Positions 16,578 through 26,343 of a DNA stretch of 40,147 nt are shown one piece after another. Both the position numbers and the translations under genes were made by a program. This stretch comes from an uncultured Ruminococcus sp. Its GTDB lineage: Bacteria > Bacillota > Clostridia > Oscillospirales > Acutalibacteraceae. Within the stretch, counting starts at the first letter, position 1. The number at the start of each line of letters is the position of its first letter. Location: NCBI GenBank assembly GCA_902793125.1, contig CADBCC010000012.1, forward strand, positions 6,159 to 46,305. Reading direction: 5' to 3'. The notes under the pieces are model-generated. The model saw only the letters and a list, made by a program, of their open reading frames with translations. It had not been told where the DNA came from and made no database searches.

Positions 16578-17375
16578 ATGAAACCGAAAGTTAAACTTTT
16601 AGCGCATACCCCGAACGCTGAACAGGTAGTCGCAATGGCGGCTAAATTATGTTATTCCGCGTCGGATATTGAAAACATAAAAGAAGGTCTGGACGAAGAG
16701 AGTACAACCCGTTTTATAAATATGCTTGCGAGCCTCGGGCACGGAAGTCCTGTTGAGCACGCCTCGTTTACATTCGGAATAGAGGGAATCAGCCGCGCCT
16801 GCTCCCACCAGCTTGTGCGCCACAGAATCGCGTCTTATTCACAGCAGTCGCAGAGGTATGTTGACGGAACGAAATTTGAGTTCGTAACTCCTCCCGAAAT
16901 CGAGAAAAACGAGAAGGCGTTCTCCGCCTATAAAAAAGTTATAGATATGCAGTCCGAAGCTTACAGGGAAATAAGAGATTCTCTTATAGCTGGTTATATC
17001 AGAGAAGCGTCTCCCGAAATAAGCGGAAGCGATGATGAAATTATTGAAAGCTTCAGGCAGAGCGACAAAACTCAGTTCAATGCTTTTGTAAAAAAGGCTA
17101 ACGAGGACGCGAGATTTGTTCTTCCCAATGCCTGCACCACTAAGATAATCTGTACTTTTAATACACGCAGCTTAGAAAACTTTTTTGCTCACCGCTGTTG
17201 TAACCGCGCCCAGTGGGAAATCCGCGAAGTGGCTGAGCAGATGCTTTTGGAATGCTTAAAAGTCGCTCCCAACCTTTTCTCGAAATGCGGACCGTCGTGC
17301 CTGTTCGGACCTTGTCCCGAGGGTAAGATGACCTGCGGAAAGGCTAAGGAAATGAGGGAGAAGTATGGCAGGTAA
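16578..17375 (+). CDS. thyX: Flavin-dependent thymidylate synthase ThyX
   Basis: A 265-aa ThyX that makes dTMP from dUMP using methylene-THF as methyl donor and FAD/NADPH as reductant. The signature RHRxxSxxxxSxRY is present as RHRIASYSQQSQRY around residues 81-94. The early SPVEHASFTFGIEG and the late FNTRSLENFFAHRCCNRAQWEIR, shortened here to its anchor AHRCCNRAQWEIR, are also typical of the FAD and dUMP sites. The C-terminus carries a Cys-rich extension (CGPSCLFGPCPEGKMTCG) found in Firmicute ThyX proteins. It heads an operon and overlaps tmk by 11 nt, so the enzymes for dTMP and dTDP are made together. GAGGA lies before the ATG. Confidence 0.96.
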   Translation: MKPKVKLLAHTPNAEQVVAMAAKLCYSASDIENIKEGLDEESTTRFINMLASLGHGSPVEHASFTFGIEGISRACSHQLVRHRIASYSQQSQRYVDGTKFEFVTPPEIEKNEKAFSAYKKVIDMQSEAYREIRDSLIAGYIREASPEISGSDDEIIESFRQSDKTQFNAFVKKANEDARFVLPNACTTKIICTFNTRSLENFFAHRCCNRAQWEIREVAEQMLLECLKVAPNLFSKCGPSCLFGPCPEGKMTCGKAKEMREKYGR

Positions 17376-18024
17376 GTTTATCGTAATAGAGGGGCTGGAC
17401 GGCTCAGGAAAAGCGACTCAGACTGAAATACTGAAAAAAGCTTTTGAGGCTGAGGGAGAAAAAGTTTTAAAACTTTCTTTTCCCGATTATAATAATCCGA
17501 GCAGCGCTCTTGTAAAAATGTATCTGGGCGGTGAATTCGGCGACAATCCCGCCGATGTAAACGCCTACGCCGCCTCTGTTTTCTATACGGTAGACAGAAT
17601 TGCCGCATATTTAAAATTCTGGAAAAAGGATTACGAAAACGGAACGGTTATTTTAGCCGACCGTTACGCGACTTCCAATATTATTTACCAGATGTCTAAA
17701 CTCCCCGAAAATGAGTGGGATAACTTTATCGCCTTTCAGGAAGATTTTGAATACAAAAAAGTAAACGTGCCTAAGCCCGATAAAGTTATTTATCTTGACG
17801 TCGAACCCGATGTATCGCAGAAACTTCTTTCGAAAAGATATTCGGGCGACGAGAGTAAAAAGGATTTACACGAAAAGAATCTGAAGTTTTTGCTTGATTG
17901 CAGAAACTCAGCTATGTATGCCGTGAAAAAGCTCGGCTGGATAAAAATATGCTGTACCGAAAACGGTGAAATGCGTTCTGTTGAGGATATAGCCGAGGAT
18001 ATAAAAACAGCAGTTGAAGGGTAA
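17365..18024 (+). CDS. tmk: Thymidylate kinase
   Basis: 219 aa. It phosphorylates dTMP to dTDP, the step after ThyX. The P-loop is IEGLDGSGKATQTE at the N-terminus; the position after the Lys is Ala rather than the usual Ser/Thr, with Thr following. The DR(Y/S) substrate motif is DRYATSNIIYQ near residue 98. The lid region near 150-160 (LLSKRYSGDESKKDLHE) contains basic residues, as in family members. The start is preceded by GAGGGAG and overlaps thyX by 11 nt. The next gene begins 2 nt after the stop. Confidence 0.93.
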   Translation: MAGKFIVIEGLDGSGKATQTEILKKAFEAEGEKVLKLSFPDYNNPSSALVKMYLGGEFGDNPADVNAYAASVFYTVDRIAAYLKFWKKDYENGTVILADRYATSNIIYQMSKLPENEWDNFIAFQEDFEYKKVNVPKPDKVIYLDVEPDVSQKLLSKRYSGDESKKDLHEKNLKFLLDCRNSAMYAVKKLGWIKICCTENGEMRSVEDIAEDIKTAVEG

Positions 18025-18026
18025 TT

Positions 18027-18929
18027 ATGTTTGATTTTAAAGCGCCGGTTAAAGATGATTTGCCTTACATAAGAAAGATTTGCGAAAAATTCGGAACAAT
18101 GGGCTGTGACTTCAGCCCGGCGAACATCTTTATTTGGAGAAATAAATATAATATAAAAATATGTGTATATAACGGCTTTTTTGTTATGGCTTATTTTAGT
18201 GACGGTAAGCCGTGGGGATACTGTTTCCCTTTGGGAGAAGGCGACCCCACCGCTGTTGTAGCGGAAATTTTTAAAGACGCTAAACAGCGCGGACTCGAGG
18301 CTAATTTCGTTATGCTAACCGAAGCCCAGCGCCAGAAATTAGTTGAAATAACCGGTTACAAATTTTCTTTTAAAGAATTAAAAAGCGACGAGGATTATAT
18401 ATACAGAAATTATGATCTTAGTATTCTTCCCGGAAAAAGATTCCACGCTAAGCGTAACCATATCTCAAAATTCAACCGTACTTATCCTAAATGGAATTTT
18501 GCTATAATCAACAAGAACAATAAGAATGACGCTCTTAATGTCGCCGAAAAATGGTGTAAATCAAAGAATATTAATCCGTACACCAATGATGAATACAAGG
18601 CGATTGAAGAAACTCTGCAAAACTACGAACTACTTAAAATGCACGGCGGTATTCTTTATGTCGAGAAAGAACCCGTTGCTATGACCATGGGCTGCGAAAT
18701 AAATCAGAAAACCTTCGACGTTATCTTCGAGAAAGCTCTCGTTGAGTACGACGGAGTTTACGCTAAGGTTAATAACGAGTTCGTTAAAACGCTTGTTGGT
18801 TTTGAATTTATAAATCGCGAGGAGGATATGGGAATCGAAAGCCTGAGACAGGCTAAGCTCTCTTATCATCCTGTTGTAATACTTAAACGTTATTCGGGAG
18901 TAAAAAATGATAAAGCTGAGGAAAGCTGA
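18027..18929 (+). CDS. DUF2156 (LPG synthase C-terminal-like) protein
   Basis: A 300-aa cytosolic-looking protein of the DUF2156 family, the acyltransferase-like fold that forms the catalytic domain of phosphatidylglycerol lysyltransferase (MprF). Diagnostic stretches are CDFSPANIFIWRNKYNI near residue 30, HAKRNHISKFNRTYP near residue 143, and the final VNNEFVKTLVGFEFINREEDMG and LRQAKLSYHP blocks. It has two GNAT-like halves. Unlike MprF it has no membrane flippase part, so it may transfer an aminoacyl group from aminoacyl-tRNA to a soluble or membrane acceptor; this is inference. It overlaps the next GNAT gene by 23 nt and starts 2 nt after tmk, so it is in the same operon. Confidence 0.78.
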   Translation: MFDFKAPVKDDLPYIRKICEKFGTMGCDFSPANIFIWRNKYNIKICVYNGFFVMAYFSDGKPWGYCFPLGEGDPTAVVAEIFKDAKQRGLEANFVMLTEAQRQKLVEITGYKFSFKELKSDEDYIYRNYDLSILPGKRFHAKRNHISKFNRTYPKWNFAIINKNNKNDALNVAEKWCKSKNINPYTNDEYKAIEETLQNYELLKMHGGILYVEKEPVAMTMGCEINQKTFDVIFEKALVEYDGVYAKVNNEFVKTLVGFEFINREEDMGIESLRQAKLSYHPVVILKRYSGVKNDKAEES

Positions 18930-19719
18930 AGAAAAAGATATTAATTCTCTAAAAGAATTATTTAAAGACGTTTTCTACGAAAATGATGAGGCGTTAGAAT
19001 TATTCTTTAAAAGAATATATAAACCCGAAATCTGTTACGTTTGTTACGAAGGCGACGAGCTTATCGCGATGGTCTATATTATTCCGACAACCTTAAACAC
19101 AAGAAAAGCGGGTTATCTTTACGCCGCCGCTACCAAGGATGAATACAGAGGCGCGGGTGTTATGAAAGGGCTTATCCATTACGCGCTTTCCATTACCGCC
19201 CAGGAAGTTTGTATAACTCTTCCCGCGAGCGATTCGCTTTACGATTATTACGCTAAGCTTGGCTTTAAAGAGCTCAGCGCAAATATCGCCGAATTAAAAA
19301 GAGATGAACTTGAAAAACTCGCGAAACCCTATGAGGTTACCGAAACTGTTGTCGGCGGATACTGCGGGATAAGAAACAGGGTACTGAAAAATAATTTTCT
19401 TTTTTGGAATAATAATTTTATTGATTATGCTTTCGAATATAACGCGCTCTACGGGGCAAAAATTATAAAGAATAATTTCGGTTACGTTATCGCTTACGAC
19501 GAGGGAGATTACTGTTATGTTTCGGAGTTTATATGCGATGATAAAAACGCTCCCTATCTGATAACGGATCTGCTTTCCGAATTTAAAAACGAAAAATTCA
19601 GGTTCCATCTTTCGCCTAATCAGAAATTTGTTGAAAGTAAGAAAGAACGTTTCGCGATGATGAAGTCAATCACGGGGTACAGCCCCGACAGCGTGTATCT
19701 TGGTTTAGGGCTGGAGTAG
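18907..19719 (+). CDS. GNAT family N-acetyltransferase
   Basis: A 270-aa protein with an N-terminal GNAT domain (about 1-145). The acetyl-CoA pyrophosphate loop is seen as AAATKDEYRGAGVMKGLIHY (R/Q-x-x-G-x-G/A pattern) and the closing segment as LYDYYAKLGFKELS. The C-terminal 120 residues form a second, less conserved domain. Acyl acceptor unknown. The AUG follows GGGAG inside the end of the DUF2156 gene; the overlap argues for coupled translation. It is the last gene of the thyX operon: a new promoter starts one base after its stop codon begins. Confidence 0.82.
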   Translation: MIKLRKAEEKDINSLKELFKDVFYENDEALELFFKRIYKPEICYVCYEGDELIAMVYIIPTTLNTRKAGYLYAAATKDEYRGAGVMKGLIHYALSITAQEVCITLPASDSLYDYYAKLGFKELSANIAELKRDELEKLAKPYEVTETVVGGYCGIRNRVLKNNFLFWNNNFIDYAFEYNALYGAKIIKNNFGYVIAYDEGDYCYVSEFICDDKNAPYLITDLLSEFKNEKFRFHLSPNQKFVESKKERFAMMKSITGYSPDSVYLGLGLE

Positions 19720-19749
19720 TTGACAGTTTATAGTTAAATATTCTTATAC
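19720..19749 (+). promoter_or_regulatory. Promoter of the DJ-1/FTHF cyclo-ligase/mltG unit
   Basis: TTGACA (19720-19725), overlapping the last base or two after the preceding gene, then TTATAC (19744-19749) with an 18-nt spacer. Transcription should start near 19755, right at the conserved leader element. Confidence 0.65.
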
Positions 19750-19754
19750 AATGT

Positions 19755-19838
19755 ATAGATGAACGTATCCCAAGTATTTAAACTTCATAGAGCGGGGGAT
19801 ATGATTTTTAAGAAAGGAACGTCCGCGTTTTATGCGGA
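19755..19838 (+). promoter_or_regulatory. Recurrent structured leader element, copy A
   Basis: Conserved blocks shared with copy B before alaS are ATAGATGAACG (19755-19765), CAAGT (19771-19775), GCGGGGGA (19792-19799) and AGGAACG (19815-19821). TATCCC (19766-19771) can pair with GGGGATA (19795-19801), and AAGT/AACTT forms an inner hairpin. A further hairpin, TCCGC/GCGGA (19822-19838), sits between AAAGGA and the ATG of the DJ-1 gene. Class not recognised. Confidence 0.55.
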
Positions 19839-19848
19839 TAAATAAAAT

Positions 19849-20388
19849 ATGGTTTATTTGATGTTAGCTGATGGATTTGAAGTTACGGAAGCGCTGACTA
19901 CAGTTGATGTTTTAAGAAGAGCGGGTTTAGAAGTGTTGACCGTAGGAGTTACGGGAAAATGCGTTAACGCTTCCTGCAATATAAAAGTTGAGGCGGATAT
20001 AACTCCCGATGAGTTGGAAATTGACAGGCTTGACGCTGTGATTTTACCCGGCGGAATGCCCGGTACAACGAATTTAGGCGCTTCCGATTTTGTAAGCGGA
20101 GTTTTGGATTTCGCACTTGAGAACGATAAGTTTATCTGCGCGATTTGCGCGGCTCCCTCGGTTCTCGCTAAAAAAGGAATTTTAGACGGTAAAAACGCGA
20201 CCTGTTTCCCGGGCTGCGAAGTATGTGAGGATAAGGTTAATTACACCGGAGAATTTGCCGTACGCGACGGAAAGGTTATTACCGGAAAAGGCGCTGGCTG
20301 TACAATAAACTTCGCGCTTCTTGTTGCTGAAAGCCTTACCTCGTCTGAAGTTGCCGAAAATGTCAGAAAGACAATGCAATGTCCTTAA
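19849..20388 (+). CDS. DJ-1/PfpI family protein
   Basis: A 179-aa protein of the DJ-1 (ThiJ/YajL) branch. The nucleophile elbow is FICAICAAPSVLAKKG with the reactive Cys near residue 103. PGGMPGTTNLG near residue 65 and the GKGAGCTINFALLVAE close complete the signature. The Glu expected to contact the Cys lies at the N-terminus (ADGFEVTEA). Members act as deglycases/glyoxalases or redox chaperones; the precise activity is debated. No good RBS lies within 12 nt of the ATG. An AAAGGA 30 nt upstream is separated by a hairpin that could bring it close. It overlaps the next gene by 10 nt. Confidence 0.9.
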   Translation: MVYLMLADGFEVTEALTTVDVLRRAGLEVLTVGVTGKCVNASCNIKVEADITPDELEIDRLDAVILPGGMPGTTNLGASDFVSGVLDFALENDKFICAICAAPSVLAKKGILDGKNATCFPGCEVCEDKVNYTGEFAVRDGKVITGKGAGCTINFALLVAESLTSSEVAENVRKTMQCP

Positions 20389-20963
20389 AAAGTGTAGATG
20401 AGCAAAAAAACGAGCTGAGAAAAAAGTATAAAGAATTAAGGAAATCATATTCCGAGTACGAAAAATCGGAACTTGACCGAAAAATCACAGAAAGATTTTT
20501 TGAACTTGATTTTTACAAAAACGCCGATACCGTATTCGCGTTTGTCTCAAAAGATATTGAAGTCAGTACAAGAGCAATAATTCTGAACGCTTTTGCGGGT
20601 AATAAGAAAGTCGCCGTACCGCTTTGCGATACAAGTAAAACGGAAATGAGTTTTTATTACATCAATTCGTTTGATGATCTTAATGAAAAGCATTTTGGTA
20701 TTTTGGAACCTGACGCAGAAAAATGCGTTCCTGCCGAAGTGAATGACGCTCAGCTTATTATAGTCCCGGGGCTTGTTTTCGATAAAAAAGGTTATCGAAT
20801 CGGTTTCGGAAAAGGTTATTACGATCGCTTTATTCCGAATTTTAACGGTATAAAAGCCGGTATATGTTATTCGAATTGTATTGAAGATAAATTACCCTTT
20901 GATACTTATGATAGATCAGTGGATTTAGTTGTTACCGATAAATATATAATTGATACAAGGTAG
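20379..20963 (+). CDS. 5-formyltetrahydrofolate cyclo-ligase
   Basis: 194 aa. The enzyme converts 5-formyl-THF to 5,10-methenyl-THF using ATP, returning stored folate to the one-carbon pool that feeds ThyX and purine synthesis. An N-terminal basic helix (KNELRKKYKELRKSY) is present. The diagnostic C-terminal P-loop-like sequence PGLVFDKKGYRIGFGKGYYD sits near residue 127. The length matches the family (180-200). The ATG lies inside the end of the DJ-1 gene without a clear RBS, so its translation is probably coupled to DJ-1. mltG follows 9 nt later. Confidence 0.93.
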   Translation: MSLKSVDEQKNELRKKYKELRKSYSEYEKSELDRKITERFFELDFYKNADTVFAFVSKDIEVSTRAIILNAFAGNKKVAVPLCDTSKTEMSFYYINSFDDLNEKHFGILEPDAEKCVPAEVNDAQLIIVPGLVFDKKGYRIGFGKGYYDRFIPNFNGIKAGICYSNCIEDKLPFDTYDRSVDLVVTDKYIIDTR

Positions 20964-20972
20964 GAGAGAATT

Positions 20973-22340
20973 ATGGATCGCGATAATAATTCTTACGAAC
21001 AAATGGAACAAAATCAGATAAACGAAATGCGAAAAAGGAAGGTGCAGAACTTTCATCTGAATCTCAACGACGATGACCTTGCCGTTGGGGAGCAGTACCG
21101 CGATATGGGCAACTACGATGACGAAGGTCCTCAGCAGATAAGTTCGTATTCCGATGATGACGTTCGCGAACAGATGAAGCGAAACTCCAGAAATATACGT
21201 AAACGTGAAAAGCGTGAGGAAAAACGTCAGCTTAAATATGCCGACCACCAGAATAAAAGACGTTTCCGCATTATCTGGTGGGGTTCCGTTATACTCGTTG
21301 CTTTGATGTTTTCGATGTTTTTGCTTATCGGCGTAAATGATATGCTCGCGATGAACAGAACCGAAGAAAATAAAGTTACTATTGAAATCCCTGAGAACCC
21401 TTCGCTTGAAGATGTTTCGAAGGCGCTTTGGAATAAAGGCGTAATTAAAGAGGAAATGTTCTTTAATATCTACGCTAAAATTACGAAAAACGACGATGAT
21501 TTTACCCAGGGCGTCTTTAATATGAAAACCAATATGGACTACGAAGCTATAGTGAATTATCTCCAGTCCATCTCCAACCGTACCGATACAATCAAAATCA
21601 CCGTTACCGAGGGTATGAACGTTCAGGAAATCGCGGATATGCTTGTTGAAAAAGATGTTCTGCCCGATACAAGTGAGTTTTTAAAACTTTGTAATTCAAA
21701 TTATTTTGATAAAGATTATGATTTTATATCTGAAATAAAGAATCCCGATAAACGCTACTATAAACTTGAGGGTTATCTTTTCCCGGATACCTATGAGTGT
21801 TATCACAACGAGGATCCTAAACTTACCATAACAAGAATGCTAAACGACTTTGAAACAAGAATTTACGAAAACCAGAATGTTGAGGGTTATAAAAAGATTA
21901 TTAATATCGAAAAGATAGCTAAGAAAAAGAAAATGTCTTTAGATAAGGTTCTTATTATTGCTTCGATAATCCAGGCGGAAGCGGCTAACAAAAAGGATAT
22001 GTATAATATCAGCTCCGTTCTGCACAACCGGCTTAAAGCGGGCAAAGCCTCGGGATTTGCGAAGCTGAGCCTTGACTCAACAAAATATTATCCTTACAGA
22101 AGTAAGAAGAAGGTCCCCGAAAGCGAGCGCAAGACTTTTAAGAGCAGTTATAATACATATAAAATTAAAGGTTTACCGCCCGGACCGATCTGCAACCCGG
22201 GAATGGAAGCCATTTTAGCGGCGCTTTATCCGAACGATACCGATTATCTCTATTTCTGCCATTCCAAGAAGGGAACTCCTTATTACGCGAGAACTCTGTA
22301 TCAGCAGAATCTTAATTTAGCCGAAGCTAAAGGTAATTAA
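20973..22340 (+). CDS. mltG: Endolytic transglycosylase MltG
   Basis: 455 aa. A long charged cytosolic N-terminal region (residues 1-95), unusually Asp/Glu/Arg-rich, precedes one transmembrane helix (IIWWGSVILVALMFSMFLLIG, spanning about 94-116, given here by its core). A LysM-like subdomain (about 130-200) and the YceG catalytic domain follow. The catalytic Glu sits in IIASIIQAEAANKKD near residue 335, and NTYKIKGLPPGPICNPG is the family's NTY...GLPPGPI signature. MltG cleaves nascent peptidoglycan strands at the membrane and sets glycan length together with the elongasome. GGAGAG lies before the ATG. Confidence 0.93.
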   Translation: MDRDNNSYEQMEQNQINEMRKRKVQNFHLNLNDDDLAVGEQYRDMGNYDDEGPQQISSYSDDDVREQMKRNSRNIRKREKREEKRQLKYADHQNKRRFRIIWWGSVILVALMFSMFLLIGVNDMLAMNRTEENKVTIEIPENPSLEDVSKALWNKGVIKEEMFFNIYAKITKNDDDFTQGVFNMKTNMDYEAIVNYLQSISNRTDTIKITVTEGMNVQEIADMLVEKDVLPDTSEFLKLCNSNYFDKDYDFISEIKNPDKRYYKLEGYLFPDTYECYHNEDPKLTITRMLNDFETRIYENQNVEGYKKIINIEKIAKKKKMSLDKVLIIASIIQAEAANKKDMYNISSVLHNRLKAGKASGFAKLSLDSTKYYPYRSKKKVPESERKTFKSSYNTYKIKGLPPGPICNPGMEAILAALYPNDTDYLYFCHSKKGTPYYARTLYQQNLNLAEAKGN

Positions 22341-22365
22341 CTTTTCGGACTCTGAAGGGATATAT

Positions 22366-23586
22366 ATGAAAAAACCTGAAATACTTTCGCCCGCGGGAGA
22401 TTTCGAATGTCTTGAATCTGCCGTAAAATTCGGAGCGGACGCTGTTTTTCTTGCGGGGAAACAGTTTGGAATGCGTACCGCGTCGGCGAATTTTGATAAC
22501 GAACAATTAAAAAAGGCCTGCGATTACGCACATAAAAATGACGTAAAAATTCATCTTACCTGTAATACTCTACCTCGGGAATACGAGCTTGATACTCTTC
22601 CCGGGTTCCTGAGTTTTGCGCAGAGCGCGGGCGTCGACGCTTTTATTATTGCGGATGTCGGAGTAATGGAGCTTGCTAAAAAATATGCTCCCGAAGTTAA
22701 GCTGCACGTCTCAACCCAGGCTGGAGTTACAAATCATCTTACCGCGACCGCGCTTTATAATATGGGTGCTTCGAGGGTTGTTTTAGCAAGAGAGCTTTCG
22801 TTTGAAGAAATAACCGAGCTAAGGGCAAAAACTCCTAAAGAGCTTGAAATTGAGACTTTTGTACACGGAGCGATGTGTGTTTCTTTTTCCGGACGCTGTC
22901 TTATTTCAAGTTATATGACGGGACGCGACGCTAACCGCGGCGATTGCGCCCAGCCGTGCAGATGGAAATACCATCTTTTCGAGGAAAACCGCGAGGGACA
23001 GTTCTTCCCGGTTGAGGAAACCGATAAGGGAACTTTCCTTTACAATTCCCGTGATTTGTGTATGATTGAGCATATTCCGGAACTTGTAAAAGCGGGAATA
23101 ACAAGCTTTAAAATTGAAGGACGCGCTAAGTCGAGTTACTATACCGCGGTGACAACAAACGCTTACCGCCACGCCGTCGATGAATACTTTAAAAATCCTG
23201 AGAATTTTAAACTGCCCGAATGGATAAAAGAAGAAACTGAAAAAATAAGCCATCGTGAATATAACACGGGCTTTTATTTCGGAAACGAGCCGGGACAGGT
23301 TACTGATAACGGCGGATATATAAGAAAATATGATGTTGTCGCTTTTTGCGAAAAAGGCGGAAAAACTGCCGGGATTACCCAGCGCAATAAATTTTATAAG
23401 GGCGATATTCTCGATATTCTTCCGCCCGGCGGAATACCGTTTAATACAAAATGCTTAAAACTTGAAAACGAAAACGGCGAAGAAGTCGAAAGCGCTCCGC
23501 ACGCTATGGAGAAACTGAAACTTACGGCGGATAAGGAAATACCCGCGGGAAGCGTTTTAAGAGTTAAGAGACAAGAAAAGATTTAA
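22366..23586 (+). CDS. Peptidase U32 family protein (tRNA/rRNA hydroxylation type)
   Basis: A 406-aa U32 protein. The N-terminal EILSPAGDFECLESAVKFGA and the signature EIETFVHGAMCVSFSGRC, then the Cys cluster NRGDCAQPCRW near residues 186-196, are diagnostic. The Cys residues of this cluster correspond to the iron-sulphur-binding cysteines known in E. coli TrhP and RlhA. Those enzymes hydroxylate tRNA U34 or 23S rRNA C2501 using prephenate; peptidase activity is doubtful despite the name. The Firmicute member next to mltG is most like TrhP/YrrO. GAAGGG lies before the ATG. The alaS leader starts 21 nt after the stop. Confidence 0.9.
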   Translation: MKKPEILSPAGDFECLESAVKFGADAVFLAGKQFGMRTASANFDNEQLKKACDYAHKNDVKIHLTCNTLPREYELDTLPGFLSFAQSAGVDAFIIADVGVMELAKKYAPEVKLHVSTQAGVTNHLTATALYNMGASRVVLARELSFEEITELRAKTPKELEIETFVHGAMCVSFSGRCLISSYMTGRDANRGDCAQPCRWKYHLFEENREGQFFPVEETDKGTFLYNSRDLCMIEHIPELVKAGITSFKIEGRAKSSYYTAVTTNAYRHAVDEYFKNPENFKLPEWIKEETEKISHREYNTGFYFGNEPGQVTDNGGYIRKYDVVAFCEKGGKTAGITQRNKFYKGDILDILPPGGIPFNTKCLKLENENGEEVESAPHAMEKLKLTADKEIPAGSVLRVKRQEKI

Positions 23587-23606
23587 AAGTAATAGTTAAA
23601 TATTTT

Positions 23607-23685
23607 ATAGATGAACGTTGCACAAGTCTCCAAAACCTGATAGGAAAGTAAATGTGCGGGGGACATCAAAATTAATACAGGAACG
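23607..23685 (+). promoter_or_regulatory. Recurrent structured leader element, copy B (alaS)
   Basis: The same blocks as copy A in the same order: ATAGATGAACG (23607-23617), CAAGT (23623-23627), GCGGGGGA (23656-23663) and AGGAACG (23679-23685). Spacers 1 and 3 are identical in length to copy A (5 and 15 nt); the middle spacer is 28 nt against 16. GCACA (23620-23624) can pair with TGTGC (23653-23657). Upstream, TTTAAA (23582-23587) and TTATAG (23605-23610), 17 nt apart, are a plausible promoter. It is not a T-box: no AGGGTGGNACCGCG-type block is present. Confidence 0.55.
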
Positions 23686-23712
23686 AAAAACTTGACGAGG
23701 AGAAATAAAAAA

Positions 23713-26343
23713 ATGGAATGGACAGGACTTAATGAACTGAGAGAGAAATTTTTATCATTTATGGAGAGTAAAGGATGCCTCAGGCTTCCTTCTTTTCCGT
23801 TAATTCCTAAAGACGATAACAGCCTTCTGCTTATCAACAGCGGTATGGCTCCGATGAAAAAATATTTCACAGGCGAGATTACTCCGCCTAAAACAAGGGT
23901 TACAACCTGCCAGAAATGTATCCGTACACCCGATATTGAGGAAGTCGGAAAAACCGACCGCCACGGAACTTACTTTGAGATGCTCGGAAACTTTTCTTTC
24001 GGAGATTATTTTAAGAAAGAAGCTACTGCATGGGCTTGGGAGTTCTTTACAAAAGTTTTGGAAATTCCCGAGGAAAAGCTCTATGTATCTGTTTATCAGG
24101 ATGATGACGAGGCTTACGATATCTGGACAAAACAGGTAGGCGTAGACGAAAGTCATATGGTGCGCTTAGGTAAAGCCGACAACTTCTGGGAGCACGGCAG
24201 CGGTCCCTGCGGACCTTGCTCCGAAATTTATTACGACCGCGGCGAAAAATACGGTTGCGGCAAGCCTGATTGTAAAGTCGGCTGTGAATGTGACCGTTAT
24301 ATGGAAGTATGGAATTTAGTATTTACTCAGTTTGACAACGACGGAAATAATAACTATACTCCGCTTGAGCATCCGAATATTGATACCGGAATGGGACTTG
24401 AGCGCCTCGCGTGCGTAATGCAGAATGTTGATAATCTTTTCCTCGTTGATACCGTCCAGAATATTATGAATCATATAAGTGATATTGTCGGCGTAAAATA
24501 CGGCGAAAGCGAGAAAACCGATATTTCGCTTCGGGTTATTACCGACCATATCCGTTCAACAACATTTATGATTGCCGACGGAGTTATGCCGTCTAACGAG
24601 GGCAGGGGATATGTATTAAGACGTCTTTTAAGACGAGCCGCCCGTCACGGACACATTTTAAAATATACCAAGCCTTTCCTTTATAAAGTTTGTGAAACCG
24701 TAATTAAGGAGAACGAGTCCGCTTATCCCGAACTCAGAGAAAAAGAGGACTTTATTGTAAAACTAATAAAAGTCGAAGAAGAAAACTTTGCGCGCACAAT
24801 TGCTCAGGGTATGGAGCTTTTGAACTCGCTTATTGATAAATCCACCAACAGAATTATCTCCGGCGAGGAAGCGTTTAAGCTGAATGATACTTTCGGTTTC
24901 CCGATTGACCTTACGCGCGAAATAGCTAAAGAGTCGGGAATTGAAGTTAACGTTGAACGCTTCAGAGAGCTTTTAAAGGAACAAAAAAGCCGAAGCAGAA
25001 AGGCGCGTAAAAACGCGGGAGCTGATGCCTGGATTTCCGATTCCACCGACTTGTCCGATATTAAGGCAACGGAATTTGCAGGCTATAAAGATTATGACGC
25101 GGAGTCAAAAATTCTCGCTATTGTCCGCGACGGAGAGAGAGTAGATATTGTTTCCGAGGGCGAAAGCGCGATTGTTGTAACCGAAAAAACTCCCTTCTAT
25201 GCCGAATCAGGCGGACAGATCGGTGATACCGGTTTTATTACCAACGAAAACTCTGAGGCTGAGGTAACTAATACAACAAAAGACGCTCAGGGAATTTTCC
25301 TGCATACACTTACCGTTAACAAAGGAGCGTTTACGGTTGGGGATAAGGTTAAACTTTCCATTGACAAAAAGCGCCGCGAATCTATCCGCCGTAACCATAC
25401 CGCCGCTCATCTTTTGCAGGCGGCTTTAAGAGAAGTTTTAGGTACTCACGTTGAACAGGCGGGACAGCTTGTAAATGAATTCTACGTTCGTTTTGACTTT
25501 ACACATTTCGAAGCTATGACAGCTAAGGAACTTATTGAAGTCGAATTGCTTGTAAACAAAAAGATTTTTGAGGGAATTGATGTTATAACTCGCGAAATGC
25601 CGATTGATGAAGCTAAAAAGCTCGGAGCTATGGCGCTGTTCGGAGAGAAATACGGCGACGTTGTAAGAGTAGTTAAGGCGGGCGATTTCTCGGTTGAACT
25701 TTGCGGAGGTACTCACGTAGATAATACTTCAAAAATCGGACTCTTTAAAATCCGCCAGGAAGGTTCCGTAGCCGCGGGCGTAAGACGTATTGAGGCGCTT
25801 ACAGGTTTCGGTGTGCTTGATTATCTTAACCGGGCTGTTGAAATGATCGGCAACGCGGCAAGCGTTTTTAAAATTAATGATCCGAGAAAGCTTATGGCCG
25901 CTGTTGTAAAAGTTTCGGATGAACTTAAAGCAAAAGATAAAGAAATTGAAATGCTTAAAAGCAAGTTAGCCGCTTCCAAGCTTAACGATATTCTTTCTTC
26001 GGCGGTTGACGTAAACGGAGTTTCTGTTATGGTTTCTTCCGTTAAGGATGTTCAGGGAGACCAGCTCAAGGATATGTGTAATATGTGCCTTGATAAAAGT
26101 GAGAAAGCGGTTGTTGTACTCTGCGGAATCAACGGAGAAAAAGGCACTTTTGCCTGCGCTTGCTCCAAAGAAGCGGTTGCGCTCGGTCTTAATGCGGGTA
26201 AAATCGTAAAAGCTGTTGCCCAGCTAACAGGCGGTAACGGCGGCGGTAAACCCGATATGGCTATGGCTGGAGCGAAAGACATTTCGAAAGTCAATGATGC
26301 TTTGAGCGAGGTAAAGAATATTGTCTCGGAATCGCTTTCATAA
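23713..26343 (+). CDS. alaS: Alanyl-tRNA synthetase
   Basis: A class II synthetase of 876 aa, full family length. It attaches alanine to tRNA-Ala and edits mischarged Ser/Gly. The N-terminal catalytic domain starts EWTGLNELREKFLSFMESKG, with motif 2 around TCQKCIRTPDIEEVGKTDRH and the motif 3 region MGLERLACVMQ. The editing domain has HTAAHLLQAALR (about residue 560) and CGGTHVDNTSKIG (about 665), the zinc-type HxxxH/CxxxH site. The oligomerisation/C-Ala domain has GGNGGGKPDMAMAGA near the end. The ATG at 23713 is chosen because GACGAGGAG precedes it; a TTG at 23692 is upstream of that RBS. The preceding leader replaces the T-box often found before Firmicute alaS. Confidence 0.97.
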   Translation: MEWTGLNELREKFLSFMESKGCLRLPSFPLIPKDDNSLLLINSGMAPMKKYFTGEITPPKTRVTTCQKCIRTPDIEEVGKTDRHGTYFEMLGNFSFGDYFKKEATAWAWEFFTKVLEIPEEKLYVSVYQDDDEAYDIWTKQVGVDESHMVRLGKADNFWEHGSGPCGPCSEIYYDRGEKYGCGKPDCKVGCECDRYMEVWNLVFTQFDNDGNNNYTPLEHPNIDTGMGLERLACVMQNVDNLFLVDTVQNIMNHISDIVGVKYGESEKTDISLRVITDHIRSTTFMIADGVMPSNEGRGYVLRRLLRRAARHGHILKYTKPFLYKVCETVIKENESAYPELREKEDFIVKLIKVEEENFARTIAQGMELLNSLIDKSTNRIISGEEAFKLNDTFGFPIDLTREIAKESGIEVNVERFRELLKEQKSRSRKARKNAGADAWISDSTDLSDIKATEFAGYKDYDAESKILAIVRDGERVDIVSEGESAIVVTEKTPFYAESGGQIGDTGFITNENSEAEVTNTTKDAQGIFLHTLTVNKGAFTVGDKVKLSIDKKRRESIRRNHTAAHLLQAALREVLGTHVEQAGQLVNEFYVRFDFTHFEAMTAKELIEVELLVNKKIFEGIDVITREMPIDEAKKLGAMALFGEKYGDVVRVVKAGDFSVELCGGTHVDNTSKIGLFKIRQEGSVAAGVRRIEALTGFGVLDYLNRAVEMIGNAASVFKINDPRKLMAAVVKVSDELKAKDKEIEMLKSKLAASKLNDILSSAVDVNGVSVMVSSVKDVQGDQLKDMCNMCLDKSEKAVVVLCGINGEKGTFACACSKEAVALGLNAGKIVKAVAQLTGGNGGGKPDMAMAGAKDISKVNDALSEVKNIVSESLS

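Follow-up and report, generated by a model that had tools for sequence, protein, structure and literature searches.

The stretch of DNA described here (the window) comprises 40,147 nt of a draft genome of an uncultured Ruminococcus sp. (assembly GCA_902793125.1, contig CADBCC010000012.1, positions 6,159 to 46,305 of the forward strand). It carries, within a run of co-directional genes, two copies of a repeated element, one before a gene of the DJ-1/PfpI family and one before alaS. An initial annotation had drawn attention to the likeness of these two leaders. The features concerned are the following.

16578..26343, + strand: co-directional gene run thyX, tmk, LPG-synthase C, GNAT, DJ-1, FTHF cyclo-ligase, mltG, U32 and alaS (Pfam names).
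19755..19847, + strand: element copy 1, between the GNAT and DJ-1 genes (covariance-model match 19762-19847, 72.1 bits).
19822..19838, + strand: predicted 3' hairpin of copy 1, TCCGCG-TTTTA-TGCGGA (sequence, predicted fold, and retention of the hairpin before start codons).
19849..20388, + strand: DJ-1/PfpI-family gene (PF01965, 1.2e-34).
23607..23710, + strand: element copy 2, between the peptidase-U32 gene and alaS (covariance-model match 23614-23710, 69.1 bits).
23697..23702, + strand: Shine-Dalgarno sequence GAGGAG at the 3' end of copy 2 (sequence).
23713..26343, + strand: alaS (PF01411, 1.6e-202).

Four blocks are shared by the two leaders: ATAGATGAACG at 19755 and 23607, CAAGT at 19771 and 23623, GCGGGGGA at 19792 and 23656, and AGGAACG at 19815 and 23679. 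The gaps between them are 5 nt in both copies, 16 vs. 28 nt in the middle, and 15 nt in both. A direct check of the sequence thus agrees with the order and spacing first described, and also with the statement that the homology begins upstream of block 1, since TAGTTAAATATT precedes both elements, at 19731 and 23593. The middle gap had been likened to a variable hairpin of a structured RNA. Its two lengths are as given, but the DJ-1 copy is without 12 nt of the middle part, and the variable gap is therefore partly a deletion. Both copies are diverged members of their family, with GATGAACG in block 1 in place of the commoner GCAGAACC, and both were among the 24 training copies of the model that scored them.

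At its 3' end each copy comes close to a start codon. The DJ-1 ATG lies 1 nt from the model's 3' end of copy 1, where a weak Shine-Dalgarno sequence, GCGGA, is contained in the 3' arm of the end hairpin. In copy 2 the Shine-Dalgarno site is strong and the 5' arm of the end hairpin is degenerate (AAAAA). The alaS ATG, at 23713, is 2 nt from the model's 3' end. A TTG that the list of open reading frames gives at 23692 falls within the element.

Chance similarity, or local duplication of two leaders, would fit two copies 3.85 kb apart with nothing further. The pattern ATGAACG-N5-CAAGT-N(10-35)-GCGGGGGA has two matches in the 2.0-Mb draft genome, both within the window, and its backward form has none; the joint pattern, with two forward and no backward matches, is therefore not due to chance. 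A looser pattern of the 3' half, GCGGGGGA-N15-AGGAACG with up to 2 mismatches, has 27 matches vs. 4 for the backward control, many of them about 100 bp apart. A covariance model of 24 aligned copies and 12 base pairs, from whose first alignment (A1) the chance matches L082 and L088 and the partial copy L085 were excluded, finds 64 matches (E ≤ 0.1) in the genome holding the window, G000, where they form 44 arrays of one to four units. (L numbers denote the loci or regions read.) These matches throughout the genome, and the many in 20 other genomes, refute the idea of chance or local duplication.

Under strict filters (E ≤ 0.01) the element was matched in 21 of 161 genomes of the genus, with at least 25 matches in seven of them, and the further copies in related genomes that the initial annotation had looked to were thus found. 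In a sample of 394 genomes of the order, strict filters gave matches in G000 and G033 alone, both of this genus. The relatives' copies come from 80 regions, taken from the best-scoring matches and from gene-run homology rather than from all copies. Together with those of G000 they make up 134 arrays of one to six units, when units less than 220 nt apart are grouped. The exact ATGAACG...GCGGGGGA pattern had no match in 58 relatives. The exact 3'-half motif was not found in the viral contigs searched, and one array queried against phage records and one against plasmid records retrieved no similar DNA. Five named assemblies contain a motif from the 3' half. Three, RUG14250 and two red-deer metagenome-assembled genomes, are labelled uncultured Ruminococcus sp., and the other two "bacterium" and "uncultured Clostridia bacterium"; a ruminant origin is our reading of the names.

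Searches of Rfam 15 with the window at the gathering threshold, and with both leaders at E ≤ 10, gave no family that covers the element; the matches that the permissive cut-off returned in the leaders were dismissed as meaningless. Among 13 further loci searched at E ≤ 1 there were three matches, all beside the element (a tRNA, an L21 leader, and one below the cut-off). Nor was the element found in titles or abstracts of the open-licence literature retrieved. Both the family search and the Rfam results agree with its first description, as repeated, located 5' of genes, and belonging to no known class.

The unit is about 100 nt long. Its 5' part consists of GCAGAACC, UAUCC twice, AAAAC and a small stem, and its 3' part of CGGGGGAUAU, AGGAACG, a short hairpin UCCNCG-NNUGA-CGNGGA and an A-rich end. 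Alignment of 193 distinct copies gives the consensus AACCUAUCCUCUCUAUCCAAAACUUGAUAGAGGAAUAAACGUACGGGGGAUAUGAAAUUUCAGAUAGGAACGUCCACGUUUGACGUGGAGAUAUAAAA; copies with more than eight gaps were dropped, leaving 193 of 213 distinct rows for the consensus and mutual-information set. The same filter was used in the neighbour, G-U and switch-pairing analyses, and in the first of these it removed 4 of 29 shared-site pairs. The first copies of arrays often have about 15 extra similar bases at the 5' side, ending in GTCTACAGCAG or CATAGATG.

An RNA structure for the element is moderately, not strongly, supported. The inner stem (23-28:41-46) and the end hairpin (73/74-78:84-88/89) covary above shuffled columns, and the three-helix structure has a covariation score above slid versions of itself. 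The end hairpin, unlike the inner stem, had been given to the model, which biases the fitted alignments A2 and A3 in its favor. The outer stem (14-18:48-52) is conserved without covariation, and an alternative outer helix (5-10:47-52) has none either, so that the expectation of covarying helices holds in part, for the inner stem and the 3' hairpin. RNAalifold, applied to 24 copies, returned a weak outer helix only. In a mutual-information scan the most strongly coupled columns were mostly not Watson-Crick and resemble subfamily linkage, and an excess of G-U pairs over independence, as a test of the transcribed strand, was not found.

The position of the 3' end was compared with the features that follow it. 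Two of the 134 arrays, without enough downstream sequence, were left out of this analysis. In 89 of the remaining 132 the 3' end is flush with one of four features: 61 end between -1 and 6 nt from a start codon (with an open frame of at least 60 codons), while 16 meet a convergent stop codon, 8 a hairpin and 11 a sigma-70-like promoter. Of 1315 shifted control positions 11% are flush in this sense (8% of the 528 that lie inside the element and 13% of the 787 downstream of it), as are 10% of 87,315 intergenic positions of these loci that lie outside elements. In G000, 23 of the 44 arrays are flush with a start codon and 31 with any feature. Among the arrays flush with none of the four, five end 3-6 nt before a tRNA-Arg(CCG) gene (L123, L172 and L193) or a tmRNA gene (L134 and L175), and some, by eye, adjoin a native Shine-Dalgarno sequence (e.g., L188 and L250). 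The 5' side of arrays is mostly not flush. A role confined to leaders, as first supposed, does not accord with copies before tRNA and tmRNA genes, promoters, terminator-like hairpins and convergent stop codons.

These positions bear on a further explanation, that the element is an RNA processing or stability module, for example a site of RNase cleavage or stalling, between operon genes and at transcript ends. The 35 of 44 G000 arrays that lie between co-directional genes would be consistent with it, as would the copies 3-6 nt before tRNA-Arg and tmRNA genes and the 10 of 22 arrays at convergent stop codons in the related genomes G179 and G183. Such roles have been reported for ERIC and Correia elements (PMC3049150). 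The explanation leaves unaccounted for a GGA that is kept before start codons and often lost elsewhere, and we consider it quite improbable.

If the end is used for translation, GGA is expected to be kept where a start codon follows. Among the 58 copies that touch a start codon 2 have lost it, compared with 18 of the 52 last copies for which no start codon was found (Fisher p 3e-5) and 45 of the 79 internal ones (p 5e-12); the copies are related by descent, which makes these p values optimistic. The end hairpin retains at least four of its five pairs in 43/58, 20/52 and 30/79 copies of the three groups, and the mean predicted pairing of the GGA is 0.66, 0.36 and 0.40, respectively. Arrays with other offsets belong to no group of the hairpin count. 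When G179 and G183 are omitted, the hairpin is kept in 43/58, 15/34 and 20/47 copies and GGA is lost in 2, 13 and 34.

The repeat family is real and unnamed; it belongs to a clade of Ruminococcus and is unusual in that its copies end at gene starts with a putative ribosome-binding site of their own. It has dispersed intergenic copies, modular tandem units, a restriction to close relatives, and presence or absence at orthologous sites, all of which are marks of a small interspersed repeat. We therefore favor the view that both leaders belong to a BOX-like repeat of this kind, specific to the clade and present in many copies, whose 3' end probably acts as a ribosome-binding site. Copies would arise in intergenic gaps, in G000 mostly in sense orientation and between co-directional genes. 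The 3' end would come to abut whichever functional feature follows, a start codon being the commonest, and there the element would replace the native leader. GNGGA in the 3' arm of the hairpin would then become a Shine-Dalgarno sequence some 9-12 nt before the ATG, covered by the hairpin. The element would reset, and probably dampen, translation of any gene behind it, presumably without a common physiological signal. That it is transcribed and affects translation we infer from sequence, and movement or gene conversion as its mode of spread is likewise a deduction from the copies themselves.

The genes behind the arrays are core genes with no common theme. Proteins were scanned after 28 of the 44 G000 arrays, and one of them belongs to no family. 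The others have functions in cell wall synthesis, DNA replication, tRNA charging (tRNA synthetases), amino-acid synthesis, ribosome maturation and other processes: MreC, biotin ligase, a PLP (pyridoxal phosphate)-dependent enzyme, MurG-like, FtsW-like, glycosyl transferase family 4, homoserine succinyltransferase, TatD, NifU, GdpP-like, DnaB, HisS, RuvB, V-ATPase D, RbfA, NFACT, radical SAM, biotin-lipoyl, MIP, HMGL-like, hydroxyacid dehydrogenase, amino-acid kinase, histidine phosphatase, transpeptidase, aldehyde dehydrogenase, AlaS and DJ-1. The unrelated functions of the 28 do not bear out the proposal that the element precedes functionally linked genes.

They also bear on the rival that comes second to the repeat, a cis-regulatory RNA (a riboswitch or protein-binding leader), often in tandem, in which one signal would expose or hide the Shine-Dalgarno sequence across a large regulon. 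This is a possible reading, and one we hold to be doubtful. The sense orientation before genes speaks for it, as do the GGA core and covering hairpin retained before start codons, the covariation of the inner stem and end hairpin, and the finding, taken up below, that many arrays of relatives precede the same genes as in G000. Glycine riboswitches, too, have tandem units. Besides the lack of a functional theme, it is opposed by the copies before promoters, hairpins, tRNA and tmRNA genes and convergent stop codons, by the poor match between copies at shared sites, and by the failure to find the element in 140 of the 161 genomes of the genus. A two-state switch, in which CGGGGGA would pair with the anti-Shine-Dalgarno arm, was rejected; the alternative pairing is without covariation, and 294 of 300 shuffles pair as well or better. 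As for a protein partner, CsrA was not found in any of the 15 element-bearing genomes searched, although the control searches gave matches in Escherichia coli and Bacillus subtilis, and was rejected. A suggested resemblance to the c-di-AMP riboswitch was not upheld, the ydaO model being absent from the Rfam matches up to E 10 in either leader. A T-box remnant in the alaS leader was also considered and discarded, as RF00230 has no match in the window.

The gene run of the window was compared in eight genomes; in G033 alaS lies on a separate contig. Its junctions look like those of an operon that have been filled in some species and not in others. In G000 the element occupies the GNAT/DJ-1 and U32/alaS junctions. 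Both are internal to this conserved co-directional run, which argues against the earlier placement of each element at the start of a transcript. G082 has the element between tmk and LPG-synthase C, a junction of 2-6 nt in G000, G018, G005 and G031, of 32 nt in G033 and G015, and of 113 nt of other sequence in G059. G015 has it between LPG-synthase C and GNAT, genes that overlap in six of the other seven genomes and in G033 are separated by 270 nt of other sequence. In G033 one diverged copy stands before DJ-1 and four in tandem before alaS.

In some genomes the copies form subfamilies of their own. The nearest neighbour of a copy, outside its own array, came from the same genome in 20 of 24 cases in G155 (2.9 expected), 6 of 6 in G018 (0.2), 7 of 8 in G033 (0.3) and 18.2 of 29 in G179 (4.2). 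Shared-site pairs, in which arrays of two genomes precede the same gene, were chosen by eye, and the close pair G059/G110 (97% identical) was set apart. Copies at shared sites were the partner genome's best match in 4 of 24 scored pairs, and some ranked last or nearly so. Three processes would each produce this pattern: saturation of ancient copies, gene conversion, and recurrent insertion at favored sites.

A number of results weigh against a freely spreading repeat that brings its own ribosome-binding site. Twenty-four of 64 relatives' arrays with a downstream gene, two of them (in G033) fetched by gene homology, precede the same gene as a G000 array, where random hits on 36 genes, out of an estimated total of roughly 1,900, would give about 2%; shared sites above random insertion mean that sites were retained or are hot spots. 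In G000 itself the excess of same-genome neighbours is moderate (26.3 of 52, 13.8 expected), and mean identity is equal within (0.642) and between genomes (0.643); neither G082 (0.8 of 15, 1.1 expected) nor G168 (0 of 5) has any excess. Neither terminal inverted repeats nor target-site duplications rise above background in 83 single-copy arrays compared with mixed pairs. As to the 3' end, 43 of the 132 arrays fail all four flush tests, and none of the 22 arrays of G179 and G183 touches a start codon. GAGGA is present in 19 of 58 start-codon copies vs. 13 of 52 other last copies (p 0.41), and a match of at least 4 nt to AGGAGGT in 27 of 58 vs. 21 of 52, neither an enrichment; before start codons enrichment is confined to the GGA core and the hairpin. 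The missing enrichment of GAGGA slightly lowers our confidence in the interpretation of the two leaders as members of a repeat with a ribosome-binding end.

Two candidates for the origin of the family were rejected. A classic miniature inverted-repeat transposable element (MITE) is ruled out by the lack of terminal inverted repeats and target-site duplications in the 83 single-copy arrays. A RAYT transposase as partner was set aside on the distribution of Y1_Tnp (PF01797), which has no match in G000 and occurs in 6 of 15 element-bearing genomes vs. 10 of 15 genomes where the element was not found.

By the usual view, interspersed repeats are tolerated where they lie outside regulatory sequence. 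Copies of this family are often placed precisely at the start of translation, for which they seem to provide the signal. For one and the same gene, leaders that have the element in one species and lack it in a related one make a natural matched set on which the rewiring of translation by repeats between co-directional genes could be tested. There is also a lesson for annotation, in that such repeats can pass for riboswitch candidates. We think it unlikely, if conceivable, that the family amounts to portable translational control, in which a mobile repeat with its 3' end set precisely at gene borders and a hairpin-covered ribosome-binding site would bring dozens of unrelated core genes under one shared, possibly regulated, module of translation initiation, used by the sister clade (G179, G183) at transcript 3' ends.

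Several other sequences accompany the element. Copies of a second repeat family, CGCCCACGGTAAGGT...GTGGGCGGAAAGGCTATGG, likewise have their ends at start codons within this run of genes. Its exact pattern is present in 14 of the 161 genomes of the genus and not in G000, and its loci L236 and L241 gave no Rfam match to it at the gathering score. Its copies, identified from sequence, and examples of a low-complexity repeat in 5' flanks, found by eye, are located as follows.

L236 16012-16181 (G018): second repeat family.
L241 8405-8600 and 10082-10261 (G031): second repeat family.
Window 23586-23606; L184, L246 and L213: low-complexity repeats in the 5' flank of arrays.

Short low-complexity repeats of this kind often precede arrays and, by eye, look species-specific (AATTCGTAATGCG in G082, GGTAATAGGTAATAAG in G160, AATTAAGAATTAAAAATTAAG in G179); they recall the TAACTGA repeats of Beggiatoaceae. 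In G179 and G183 (L212-L229) a recurrent module with an inverted repeat, AACTTTTATTTCCTTTTC...GGAAAAGTTT, lies upstream of several arrays, and a hairpin, CTCCCTATCTAAAGTTAGATAGGGAG, recurs near them, giving by eye a mosaic of several repeat modules. In L126 (1480-1785) a tandem pair (1480-1679) stands just before a promoter-like TTGACA/TATAGT, followed by an Rfam L21 leader (L091 1686-1764, equal to L126 1707-1785). Upstream of alaS, at least 11 of 28 regions of the genus contain, by eye, a T-box-like GGGTGGTACC (L013, L014, L015, L017-L020, L029, L031, L033 and L034), and the Rfam T-box before alaS of G031 (L241 8615-8815) served as positive control. With the repeat before alaS in the window genome and in G033, control of this gene may have changed in this clade.

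The element shares with translational riboswitches and T-box leaders a 5' leader position and a hairpin covering the Shine-Dalgarno sequence; unlike them, it has no Rfam match, no shared pathway, and copies outside leaders. REP/BIME elements, which are moved by RAYT transposases, are likewise interspersed, mosaic and intergenic, the difference being the absence of a PF01797 match in G000. Of what is in print, the nearest by description are the TAACTGA repeats taken up below and BOX of Streptococcus pneumoniae, which with RUP and SPRITE has been judged parasitic and may affect co-transcribed genes (PMC3049150). According to that paper, BOX also has many short intergenic copies, limited to close relatives, and a tandem module, and is predicted to fold if transcribed (PMC3049150). 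Pneumococcal repeats are described there as over-represented between convergent genes, in contrast to the 35 of 44 co-directional positions in G000, and terminal inverted repeats are mentioned for BOX, whereas none were found here (PMC3049150). The element also departs from BOX, as described there, in often ending at a start codon with a Shine-Dalgarno-like end. A parallel in position is provided by the TAACTGA heptamers of marine Beggiatoaceae, intergenic direct repeats that mostly face a start codon, the largest class having its end 1 nt upstream (PMC4679880). As with the element, no pattern in downstream functions is reported there, some of the genes are essential, and a translational role has been proposed (PMC4679880). 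The heptamer is a 7-bp unit with little Shine-Dalgarno character (PMC4679880), whereas the Ruminococcus element is a unit of about 100 nt with a hairpin and its own Shine-Dalgarno core.

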